A model generated the notes under the pieces. It had not been told where the DNA came from. It saw only the letters and a list, made by a program, of their open reading frames with translations, and made no database searches. Position numbers and translations under genes: made by a program. Positions 37,448-44,220 of a stretch of 64,000 nucleotides of DNA are shown one piece after another. This DNA comes from Mageeibacillus sp. GTDB taxonomy: Bacteria > Bacillota > Clostridia > Saccharofermentanales > Saccharofermentanaceae. The number at the start of each line of letters is the position of its first letter. The first letter of the stretch is position 1. The DNA lies in NCBI GenBank assembly GCA_022484595.1, contig JAKVLB010000001.1, positions 186,001-250,000 on the forward strand. The letters are read 5' to 3'.

Positions 37448-38593
37448 TCAATGTTCCCCGTAATACAAATCAATGTCGACAGGACCGTCTATTCCGTCAA
37501 TTCTTCCGATACAGTTAACCTGCCACATGACATAATCGCCTTCATAGGCTGTCTGGTCAGTATAATTGGCAAGCCAGACTGCTGTGTCGCTGTCCGGCTG
37601 CCATACGGTCTCAAGATAATACTTGCTGGCATACAGCATCGACTCATAGCCTGCCTGCTGCATCCTGTCTCTGAATGTACTGTACAGTTCATTCAGGTCA
37701 CTCATGCTTAATTTATACTGCTGACAGCATGCCCAGCTTTCCCAGTCAAATGCCACCGGGAAATCGAGTGTCTGTCCGTCCAGAAGCTCAATCAGGGCTT
37801 CCGCGTGCTCCGCGACCGTTTGTGTATCGGCGGCGTTGGTGTTGTAATACACCCCGACCTTAAGCCCGGCAGCCTTTGCATTTGCAAGATTCTGACTGAA
37901 ATAGTCGTCAACGCCAAGTTCGCCTTCGGTATATTTGAGAGCGCGTATCATTACAAAATCACAGCCTGCCGCCTTCACAGCGTTAAAATCTATCTCGCCC
38001 TGCCATTTGGAAACGTCGATTCCCACAAGAACGCCGTCTTCACTGTACCGGCTTATGAAATCATCATAGTTTATTCTCGGAGTCTCCGTTGCCTGAGTCT
38101 GTTCACCTGGATCAGCTGCATCGGACTGTGCTGCAACCGAGACGGTAATGTCATGTGACCTTGAATTGCCGGCATCGTCAGTAATTATCGCTGATATGTC
38201 GTATGTTCCTGCAGATGACGTGTCAACATTGCCGTCTACGGTAAGATTTACATCAGAGTCCATATTATCTATATAACTCACATTATCGTATACATTGAAT
38301 TCATCACCTGTATTTACGGTTATCTGATCCGGGCAGCTCAGAAACAACGGTGCTTCCGTATCCTTCTGAGTCTGAGTGACTGTCTGAATCTGCTCCGATG
38401 CAACGGCAGCGGAAGACTCTGTCAAAGCACTCTCAATCGAAGATTCGGATGGTGGCACTGATGCGGCGGCAGCCTGTGCAGACGAATCAGACATATTTGT
38501 TTCCAGGGAACCCGTTGCAGTAGTTTTGCCGCCAGAACAGGCAGCCAGAACAAACGATACAGCAAGAACCTGAATTACCAACAATTTCTTCAT
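37448..38593 (-). CDS. GH25 lysozyme-like lipoprotein with Ig-like domain
   Basis: Exported muramidase-type protein of 381 residues. A lipoprotein signal peptide ends at LAAC (Cys19). Residues 20-78 are a Ser/Ala-rich linker. Residues 80-153 form a DUF5011/Ig-like beta domain (APLFLSCPDQITVNTGDEFNVYD is its start region). The GH25 catalytic domain follows from about residue 188, with GIDVSKWQG (Asp193) and AFDWESW (Asp283, Glu285) at the active site. It would cut glycan strands of peptidoglycan from the outer membrane face. It has its own promoter upstream and is followed after one base by holA, an unusual pairing. Confidence 0.9.
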   Translation of the reverse strand: MKKLLVIQVLAVSFVLAACSGGKTTATGSLETNMSDSSAQAAAASVPPSESSIESALTESSAAVASEQIQTVTQTQKDTEAPLFLSCPDQITVNTGDEFNVYDNVSYIDNMDSDVNLTVDGNVDTSSAGTYDISAIITDDAGNSRSHDITVSVAAQSDAADPGEQTQATETPRINYDDFISRYSEDGVLVGIDVSKWQGEIDFNAVKAAGCDFVMIRALKYTEGELGVDDYFSQNLANAKAAGLKVGVYYNTNAADTQTVAEHAEALIELLDGQTLDFPVAFDWESWACCQQYKLSMSDLNELYSTFRDRMQQAGYESMLYASKYYLETVWQPDSDTAVWLANYTDQTAYEGDYVMWQVNCIGRIDGIDGPVDIDLYYGEH

Positions 38594-41771: not shown

Positions 41772-42989
41772 ATGAGCGATTTATATGTTAATTCCGGCTT
41801 TAAACAGGCTACTCTGGCTCCCTTTGGGCCTATCGGCATCATAGCGCATACCACGAACATTGATTTTGTCCGCAAAGTATCGGATGTACTTTCTTCCAAG
41901 AGAAATAAACGAATAGCTGACGGCAGAACACAGTACGCATCGAACCCCGGATATGCAAGAAGCGACTATCTCATTGATTCCAAACTTATAAGATTCCAGT
42001 CCGGCGAAGGCAAATGTGCTTTAGGCGAGAGTGTAAGAGGCAACGATATCTATATTATCACCGATGTTCTGGCACATAACGGCACTGTCAAGCTCATTGA
42101 CGGAGAACATGTCATAAGTTCGGACGATCATTATATGGACCTTCTCCGAATCATCTCGGTATGTCGCGGGAAAGCAAGAAGAATCAATGTTATTATGCCT
42201 TTTGTATATGAAGGCCGACGTGAGAAGCTTGACACGCGCGGAGAATCATACGATTGCGCCGATGTACTGAAGAAGCTCTACAGTCTCGGAGTAGCTAACC
42301 TTATCGTTTTCGATCCTCACGACGCAAGAATAGCGAATGCTGTTCCGCTTATGAGCATTGAATATCCGAGATGTCAGTTCAAACTCACCTCCGCCCTTCT
42401 CAGCAAGTTCGGTTCAATCAAGCTCGATAAAGATAATACTATTGTTGTAAGCCCCGATGAGACAGGCGTCTCAAGGGCTATTTTTTACTCTTCGCATTTG
42501 AATCTTCCTCTTGGAATTTTCTACCGTGACCGCGACTACACAATCAAAGTCAACGGTGAGCATCCCATAAAGGAATTCAGATATCTGGGCGATGATGTCA
42601 AAGACAGGGATATTCTCCTTATCGATGACATGATCAACTCAGGCTCAACAATGCTTCGCACAGCAGCGAAGCTCAAGACTTACGGCGCGGGCGATATTTA
42701 TTGTCTGTCGCCTTTCGGTCTGTTTACGGAAGGCTTCGATGGCTTTGACAAGGCATATGAAGAAGGCATTATCAAGAGCGTTTGCTGCACCAATCTGGTC
42801 TATCACCCGGAAGGTCTTGACAAGCGCGAATGGTATCTTGACGCCGATATGGTGCCGTATGTGGCGCGCATCATTGACGCACTCAACGTAGATGAATCCA
42901 TCTACGACTTGATTAATTCAACCTCAAGACTTACTGAGCTCGTCAGCCAGATAAGGATTGGGGAGGTTTTCGACGAATTTAACGAATAA
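41772..42989 (+). CDS. Ribose-phosphate pyrophosphokinase paralogue 1, altered catalytic loop
   Basis: A 405-residue PRPP-synthetase-family protein, about 90 residues longer than the standard enzyme. Recognisable parts are FQSGEGKCALGESVRGND (N-terminal half), RINVIMPFVYEG, FDPHDARIANA (the ATP-site His) and the PRPP-binding loop DILLIDDMINSGSTM. The flexible loop that normally starts with KRR reads YRDRDYT here, so the catalytic Lys is replaced by Arg and the first Arg by Asp. The next gene, 25 bases downstream, is a close homologue with KRR intact. This copy may be a poorly active or regulatory subunit. Confidence 0.85.
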   Translation: MSDLYVNSGFKQATLAPFGPIGIIAHTTNIDFVRKVSDVLSSKRNKRIADGRTQYASNPGYARSDYLIDSKLIRFQSGEGKCALGESVRGNDIYIITDVLAHNGTVKLIDGEHVISSDDHYMDLLRIISVCRGKARRINVIMPFVYEGRREKLDTRGESYDCADVLKKLYSLGVANLIVFDPHDARIANAVPLMSIEYPRCQFKLTSALLSKFGSIKLDKDNTIVVSPDETGVSRAIFYSSHLNLPLGIFYRDRDYTIKVNGEHPIKEFRYLGDDVKDRDILLIDDMINSGSTMLRTAAKLKTYGAGDIYCLSPFGLFTEGFDGFDKAYEEGIIKSVCCTNLVYHPEGLDKREWYLDADMVPYVARIIDALNVDESIYDLINSTSRLTELVSQIRIGEVFDEFNE

Positions 42990-43014
42990 CACACACGAAA
43001 GGCAGGCTGCATTT

Positions 43015-44220
43015 ATGACTTCAGCATCTGATGAGAAAGCTTACTCACGCTATGACCAATACGGTGACAACCCAATGGCACCGGTAGGTCCTATCGGACT
43101 CATCGCACTCAAGGGAAGCGAGGACTTCACGGAGAAGGTAAACTATTACCTCAACAGGAGACGTTCAGAGTATCAGAAAGAACAGTTCGTAAACACATAT
43201 CCGGGATTTTTCCGTGAGGACTACAGAATTCCTGTAGAGAACGCGAGATTTTCCTCGGGCGAAGGCAAGGCCGTAGTCAAGAACACGGTAAGAGGTCATG
43301 ACCTCTATATTCTTGCCGATGTCATGAACTGCTCTTGCACATACAAGATGTTCGGTCAGGATAACAGAATGAGTCCGGACGATCATTATCAGGACCTGAA
43401 GCGAGTCATACTCGCCTGCTCCGGTAAATCCAGAAGAATCAACGTCATCATGCCTTTCTTATATGAGAGCAGGCAGCACAAGAGGAACGCAAGAGAATCT
43501 CTGGACTGCGCATTCGCGCTTGAAGAGCTTTATGACCTTGGAGTCGCGAATATTCTGACATTCGATGCACACGACGAGCGAGTAGCGAACGCTATTCCTC
43601 TCGCAGGCTTTGAGTCACTTCCCACCACATATCAGATCATAAAAGAGATGTACCGTCAGGTTCCTGACCTTAGCTTTTCTAAAGGCAAGTTCATGGTGGT
43701 ATCACCCGATGAAGGCGGTATTCCGAGAGCAATGTACTACGCATCAATTCTCGGCGTACCTCTCGGAACCTTCTATAAGAGAAGAGATTACACAACAGTA
43801 GTAAACGGACGCAACCCGATAATCGCCCATGAATTCCTTGGCGATTCCGTAGAAGGTCTTGATATTCTTATCGTGGACGATATGATTTCTTCCGGCGATT
43901 CCATGCTCGACATAGCTCGTGAGATGAAGGAGCGCGGAGCTCGCAAGGTGTTCTGTGCCGTCACTTTCGGTCTTTTCACCGAGGGAATCGACAAGTTCAA
44001 CAAAGCATATGAAGAAGGTGTAATAAATAAGATTTTCGCGACGAACGCTACTTATCGCCGCCCTGAGCTTCTTGAAGCACCGTGGTATGCGGATGTCAAC
44101 CTTTGCAAGTTTGTCGCTTTGCTGATAGATGCCATCAACCACGACGCTTCCCTTTCAAATCTCATCAGCCCTACCGAGAAGATAAAGAGACTCCTCAACG
44201 AGAAAGAGAATCTCGGTTGA
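43015..44220 (+). CDS. prs: Ribose-phosphate pyrophosphokinase paralogue 2
   Basis: Makes PRPP from ribose 5-phosphate and ATP. The 401-residue protein matches the upstream copy throughout: FSSGEGKAVVKNTVRGHD, INVIMPFLYESRQHKRNARESLD, FDAHDERVANAI and DILIVDDMISSGDSM. It keeps the catalytic YKRRDYT loop, so it is the likely active enzyme of the pair. I start at 43015, about eight bases after AGGCAGG, rather than at an upstream ATG that lies inside the end of the first copy. This long form of Prs is common in Lachnospiraceae-type genomes as I recall. Confidence 0.88.
   Translation: MTSASDEKAYSRYDQYGDNPMAPVGPIGLIALKGSEDFTEKVNYYLNRRRSEYQKEQFVNTYPGFFREDYRIPVENARFSSGEGKAVVKNTVRGHDLYILADVMNCSCTYKMFGQDNRMSPDDHYQDLKRVILACSGKSRRINVIMPFLYESRQHKRNARESLDCAFALEELYDLGVANILTFDAHDERVANAIPLAGFESLPTTYQIIKEMYRQVPDLSFSKGKFMVVSPDEGGIPRAMYYASILGVPLGTFYKRRDYTTVVNGRNPIIAHEFLGDSVEGLDILIVDDMISSGDSMLDIAREMKERGARKVFCAVTFGLFTEGIDKFNKAYEEGVINKIFATNATYRRPELLEAPWYADVNLCKFVALLIDAINHDASLSNLISPTEKIKRLLNEKENLG

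Follow-up and report, generated by a model that had tools for sequence, protein, structure and literature searches.

PRPP synthetase stands at the entry to the synthesis of nucleotides, histidine, tryptophan and NAD. In the mammalian PRPP-synthetase-associated proteins (PRPSAP), glycine and alanine take the places of PRPS1 K194 and R196, the flag and the dimer interfaces are conserved and the protein binds PRPS; PRPSAP2 and PRPSAP-like proteins also carry an insertion within the catalytic flexible loop (available text of PMC12238573). In yeast, Prs1 and Prs5 have a disrupted catalytic loop and work in pairs such as Prs1/Prs3 (excerpts of PMC9221600). In bacteria, expression of just one PRPP synthetase is described as typical (available text of PMC12238573). 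A 2026 preprint that covers 29,322 bacterial PRPS sequences assigns, in its accessible sections, all 37 pseudoenzyme events to the eukaryotic dataset, and describes bacteria as having produced new PRPS classes and eukaryotes PRPS-associated pseudoenzymes (PMC13252144). We found no description of a bacterial PRPP-synthetase pseudoenzyme, pair or heteromer in our searches of the open-licence PubMed Central literature, where the work of this kind that was listed was eukaryotic.

A tandem gene pair in Mageeibacillus

The DNA analysed, called the window below, is a stretch of 64,000 nucleotides from Mageeibacillus sp. (GCA_022484595.1, contig JAKVLB010000001.1, positions 186,001 to 250,000). A first-pass annotation had described two similar PRPP synthetases of about 400 residues in tandem, 25 bases apart. 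Both statements held: the proteins have 405 and 401 residues and match the same subfamily model, and the spacing is the distance from the stop codon of the first gene (A) to the ATG of the second (B), its neighbour on the same strand.

41772..42989, + strand: gene A, PRPP synthetase homologue (NF005299), 405 aa, proposed non-catalytic partner subunit (from ORF, profile and residues)
42990..43014: gap between A and B, 25 bases, without a terminator-like site (scan of the gap)
43015..44220, + strand: gene B, PRPP synthetase (NF005299), 401 aa, proposed catalytic subunit (from ORF, profile and residues)

The two proteins were 45% identical by BLAST, the multiple alignment gave 168 identities over 401 aligned positions, and both proteins matched the Pfam PRPP-synthetase domains. 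With NF005299 (PRK06827, a phosphoribosylpyrophosphate synthetase subfamily; curated cut-off 327 bits) A scored 419.2 bits and B 559.5, both above the cut-off; the general PRPP-synthetase model TIGR01251 gave A 148 bits. The pair is flanked in the window by what we take to be an engB-like gene upstream and an NFACT-like gene downstream. Elsewhere in the window, a lipoprotein-like ORF (37448-38593, - strand) presumably carries a GH25-type lysozyme domain, judging from its motif.

Because the 25-base gap lacks a terminator-like site, A and B are probably made from one message. A consensus promoter scan returned 9 promoter-like sites against 5.0 expected (sd 2.3). Two matches, at 42625 and 42745 (+), lie inside the second half of A, upstream of B, and might provide B with a separate promoter. 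No RNA control element was matched in Rfam between 40900 and 44700 at the gathering threshold. As regards a readthrough A-B fusion, 33 of 76 genus pairs and 3 of 19 other pairs have A and B in the same reading frame. The gene order is reversed, with B first and A second, in family f4 and in two genomes of family f3 (L201, L202).

AlphaFold models were obtained with mean pLDDT of 89.5 for B and 84.0 for A; in the A model, residues 150-158, directly after the ATP-contact arginine, fell below 50. The A model aligned with human PRPS1 (8dbe; Z 33.6, 311 residues, 3.1 A) and with the E. coli enzyme (7xmu; Z 33.4, 303 residues, 3.3 A), and the B model with the same two structures (7xmu, Z 35.7, 301 residues, 2.0 A; 8dbe, Z 35.7). 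PAP39 and PAP41 were also among the fold matches of the models, and structural alignments to the class I enzymes of E. coli and B. subtilis had 20-25% identity. A is thus predicted to have the PRPP-synthetase fold, which is uninformative on activity.

Active-site residues lost and kept

The features that bear on catalysis are as follows (E. coli numbering in brackets where it helps).

41991..42008, + strand: A flag motif RFQSGE, residues 74-79, retained (alignment; role from excerpts of PMC6332680)
42216..42224, + strand: A RRE, residues 149-151, where B has RQH, on the ATP side (96-98)
42459..42467, + strand: A ETG, residues 230-232, with the first Gly of B's EGG (Gly172) replaced
42525..42533, + strand: A catalytic-loop motif RDR, residues 252-254 (194-196) (sequence, alignment)
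42624..42650, + strand: A ribose-5-phosphate loop DDMINSGST, residues 285-293, retained (sequence, alignment)
43777..43785, + strand: B catalytic-loop motif KRR, residues 255-257 (sequence, alignment)

The first-pass annotation had read KRR in the 43777 region of the second copy, exactly where its codons are, and RDR in the 42521 region of the first; the latter motif is present, but its codons lie four bases further on. It had also presented RDR as a changed loop. The replacement of lysine by arginine is indeed telling. The aspartate alone is uninformative, because active enzymes differ in the middle residue of the motif (human PRPS2 has KER in the alignment), and only the change at the first position matters. 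At the positions of E. coli K194 and R196, A has R252 and R254, with the lysine gone, and B has K255 and R257. B keeps R96, Q97, H131, D170, K194, R196, D220 and D221. Of these, H131, D170, D220 and D221 are also kept in A, as H183, D229, D285 and D286. Beyond the loop change noted earlier, Gln97 is replaced by Arg in the window's A and Gly172 by Thr. Positions T225 and T228 read S/T in A and S/S in B, and serine at both in B is a trait of the whole NF005299 family. Of the allosteric-site residues of the E. coli enzyme, both A and B retain R49, D52 and S308, and S310 is mostly changed in A; the alignment is unsure in this part, and we base no conclusion on it.

To see how general these changes are, we gathered copies from 61 of 62 loci and from further genomes and aligned them together with partial sequences of the E. 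coli and human enzymes. The loci came from Saccharofermentans, Mageeibacillus, Ruminococcaceae and other Clostridia isolates, several of them from the rumen or other herbivore gut. ORFs below 330 aa (the frameshifted B of L053 and contig-end fragments) and sequences sharing identical last 300 residues were excluded, and the residue counts leave out L211, a duplicate of L099. Counted by sequence, so that the copies are non-independent (2 changes account for the lysine state on the 96-row tree described below), the catalytic lysine was missing from 103 of 104 A copies and present in all 146 B-type and single copies. The first-pass annotation had suggested aligning the loop across homologues, and its proposal would have been refuted by loop substitutions that were not conserved in relatives with the pair; the lysine loss proved conserved, and the proposal survives. 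Both K194 and R196 were also present in all 48 sampled NF005299 copies from outside the order. The sole A copy with a loop lysine, L121:4609-5826, reads FYKKIDYQ where its close relative L200 reads FYRKYDYQ, and may represent a reversal or the ancestral state.

The residue that replaces the lysine was arginine in 97 A copies, serine in 2, leucine in 2, methionine in 1 and asparagine in 1. That an arginine, rather than a random residue, stands at this position in 97 of 104 copies suggests a maintained chemical role, such as might be expected if A catalysed a different reaction of the same fold. We consider this very improbable; six A copies of family f2 carry S, L, M or N there, and the neighbours, taken to be engB-like and NFACT-like, point to no other pathway.

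Other positions changed more unevenly. Of the 104 A copies, 38 lacked the loop arginine R196, 10 of these through a gap, whereas all 146 other sequences had it; both K194 and R196 were gone in 37 A copies. Gln97 was replaced in 70 and Gly172 in 102 of the 104, although both are invariant in the 146 B-type sequences. The loop of the window's A is as long as that of B, and in the columns compared other A copies had a gap or at most one extra residue. H131, D170, D220 and D221 were kept in 99 to 103 of the 104 A copies. Some f2 copies have S or A at D220 and N or A at D170. In one f2 genus (L120, L195, L196 and L197) the A copy has lost additional residues, among them the first Asp of its ribose-phosphate loop, which is A or S, and in two of these loci the metal Asp, which is N. 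The A copy of L105 (family f4) has S at D220. The f2 changes at D220, D170 and K194 would fit a role that needs no catalysis, and since the ribose-phosphate pocket is eroding in some f2 copies, A may there be structural only.

These counts bear on the alternative that A is an active PRPP synthetase isozyme, with arginine in place of lysine and altered kinetics or nucleotide use, so that the pair would be two enzymes. Weak activity of A is possible because the K-to-R change is conservative and the loop arginine (retained in 66 of 104 copies, the window's A among them) and H131, D170, D220 and D221 are mostly kept. The loss of both loop residues in more than a third of the copies, the loop gap in 10 and the replacement of Gln97 and Gly172 argue against a second enzyme. 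In human PRPS1 the activity of K194A and of R196A was undetectable, although these are changes to alanine and not to arginine (PMC4363470, text available in part). We found no measured value in the literature for a K-to-R mutant of the catalytic lysine. On balance we regard an active isozyme as unlikely.

The flag followed a different pattern. In the E. coli enzyme F35, D37 and E39 are supplied by the neighbouring chain and contact the nucleotide, while R96, Q97 and H131 act from the opposite one of the two chains (excerpts of PMC6332680); the trans role of F35 and D37 and the role of H131 are likewise given in the available text of PMC9232217. In all 104 A copies the aromatic flag residue (F35) was F or Y and the acidic one (E39) was E. 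Together, the losses and retentions suggest that A lost part of the function exerted in its own chain and kept that exerted in a neighbouring chain.

Phosphoribosyltransferase-fold proteins, PurR and PyrR among them, have turned into regulators. A might similarly be a free-standing sensor or regulator responding to PRPP or ribose-5-phosphate outside any oligomer of B; its ribose-phosphate loop is kept in most copies, and PyrR was among the fold matches. We think this improbable, somewhat more so than an active isozyme, given that Pfam and NCBIfam scans of A returned no DNA- or RNA-binding domain, that the flag, kept in all 104 A copies, has its known job in the neighbouring subunit, and that in some f2 copies the ribose-phosphate loop is decaying yet the flag is kept.

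Distribution, origin and selection

In the genome of the window (1.92 Mb, 99% complete), A and B were the only TIGR01251 matches above its cut-off. Seven weaker matches (at most 34.6 bits) covered short C-terminal spans, as in other phosphoribosyltransferases. Across 59 genomes, comprising this one and relatives (47 of them with completeness of 90% or more and contamination of 5% or less), no TIGR01251 match at E 1e-20 or better exceeded 174.2 bits; three genomes had no match at this threshold, and among the matches listed the TIGR01251 places coincided with those of NF005299. Because no other PRPP synthetase was found in the 59 genomes, the A-B pair is the most likely source of PRPP in these bacteria.

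Wider samples were searched with up to 6 candidates per genome at E 1e-60 or better, so that very diverged copies may be missed in the counts that follow: in the class, the family was present in 103 of 293 genomes, all 16 of this order having two adjacent copies, and among the other 87 family-bearing genomes 11 were multi-copy with none adjacent on one contig; in the phylum, the family was present in 16 of 299 genomes and an adjacent pair only in the window's own. One genome (G112) had its two copies on separate contigs, one of them at the contig start. In the order, 104 of 113 genomes at least 90% complete had at least two matches, 7 had one and 2 had none; these are matches per genome, with adjacency covered for some of the genomes. 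The class, phylum, order and 59-genome searches are free of the bias that comes with using A as the query.

Same-strand pairs were present in 95 of 102 order loci examined, a figure biased toward the presence of A since L041-L101 were found with A as query (L163-L179 partly overlap these), and one in which some pairs include a copy truncated by a contig end, with 150 aa as the minimum length; L102, a contig-end fragment, was left out. The seven unpaired loci were five contig ends (L080, L099, L180, L181, L182), the frameshifted B of L053 and the B-only L116 (genome G051). At L053:5203-6439 B is split by a frameshift, possibly a sequencing error since the adjacent A has an open reading frame.

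Four genomes of family f3 (G051, G676, G677, G684; loci L116, L183, L184, L185) had B without A. Each had a single match in the whole assembly, and in the last three A was absent from the fetched flanks. In G051, B retains as neighbours what we take to be comEC-like, engB-like and NFACT-like genes, of which engB is reversed relative to the window. Because these four genomes have B without A, B seems able to work alone, and A is not essential everywhere. In family f24, L124, L126, L128 and L129 are second, unlinked NF005299 copies that keep KRR, a motif that suggests active isozymes and not partners.

The origin of A was examined in trees from which the loop columns were excluded; an earlier quick tree of 115 rows had included them. 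In an 80-row tree the A copies of f1 and f4 were joined and the A partners of f2 and f3 were placed among or near B sequences. Two separate origins of A, as this tree would imply, were considered and set aside in favour of one: a single A clade was not rejected on the same tree (p-AU 0.355), and in a 96-row tree all 37 A rows lay on one side of a branch with support 70/87. The simplest account is a single duplication at the base of the order followed by losses in part of f3; we favour it without regarding it as firmly supported, and independent duplications with the same lysine change may have occurred instead.

In the genus-level set the median dN/dS was 0.092 for A (232 pairs, dS 0.05-1.5) and 0.079 for B (1102 pairs), and in 132 matched pairs the medians were 0.092 for A and 0.048 for B. 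A was less conserved than B in all 1653 matched, non-independent comparisons (58 loci), with median identity of 64% against 85%. A is under purifying selection. It is constrained yet faster-evolving than B, the pattern expected of a non-catalytic partner. An active isozyme would also be held under purifying selection; the faster evolution of A counts against one. A decaying duplicate without function could explain the faster evolution and the absence of A from four f3 genomes, but was rejected, and is scarcely credible, with dN/dS near 0.09 and at least two matches in 104 of 113 order genomes.

A proposed partner subunit and known systems

The reading we prefer, at a probability of about two in three, is that A, a PRPP synthetase paralogue with impaired catalysis, has been retained to serve B as a dedicated, non-catalytic partner subunit, in parallel with PRPSAP. 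B is presumably the PRPP synthase of the genome and the obvious enzyme of the pair, an activity that we infer. Made from one message, A and B would assemble into mixed dimers or hexamers, in which A would lend its flag (RF..GE) to the ATP site of B. The site of A itself would still bind ribose-5-phosphate and metal, without the lysine needed for transfer, and A might tune the activity, assembly or feedback of B, as PRPSAP is thought to do for animal PRPS. A more specific form, in which B performs the chemistry in a hetero-oligomer while A supplies the flag in trans and uses its dead site, binding ribose-5-phosphate or PRPP, as a built-in sensor, is tentative, and we put it at somewhat less than even odds.

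If that form is true, A would be, to our knowledge, the first bacterial PRPSAP-like subunit, evolved independently of the eukaryotic ones. A lysine-less partner across a bacterial order would break the division between bacteria and eukaryotes drawn in the accessible sections of PMC13252144. The order would also offer a naturally replicated two-gene system for studying the role of a partner, in which species with A and B can be set against related B-only genera as ready controls.

Among known systems, the class I PRPP synthetases of E. coli and B. subtilis share the fold of A and B but form a single homo-oligomer of chains of about 315 residues, compared with about 400 in A and B. The members of NF005299/PRK06827 outside the order are direct relatives; they keep K194 and R196 and had no adjacent second copy in the sampled genomes. 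Yeast Prs1 and Prs5 are, like the proposed A, partner polypeptides with a disrupted catalytic loop. They differ in having large insertions (NHRs), whereas A copies have substitutions or short deletions and the window's A has no large insertion.

The parallel with mammalian PRPSAP had been suggested in the first-pass annotation, and as a parallel it agrees with the near-universal loss of the lysine, the kept flag, the purifying selection and the usual presence of two copies in the order; it does not extend to descent. The score of A with NF005299, far above that with TIGR01251, and its grouping with sequences of its own order, in trees built without human rows, place A outside the PRPSAP lineage. 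Like A, PRPSAP1 and PRPSAP2 (PAP39 and PAP41) are PRPP synthetase paralogues that have lost catalytic-loop residues and kept the flag. A differs in being bacterial, within NF005299 and not derived from PRPS1, and its binding to B is a predicted one. The window's copy has no loop insertion, some other A copies have a deletion instead, and, in a further difference from PRPSAP, A is encoded beside its catalytic partner.
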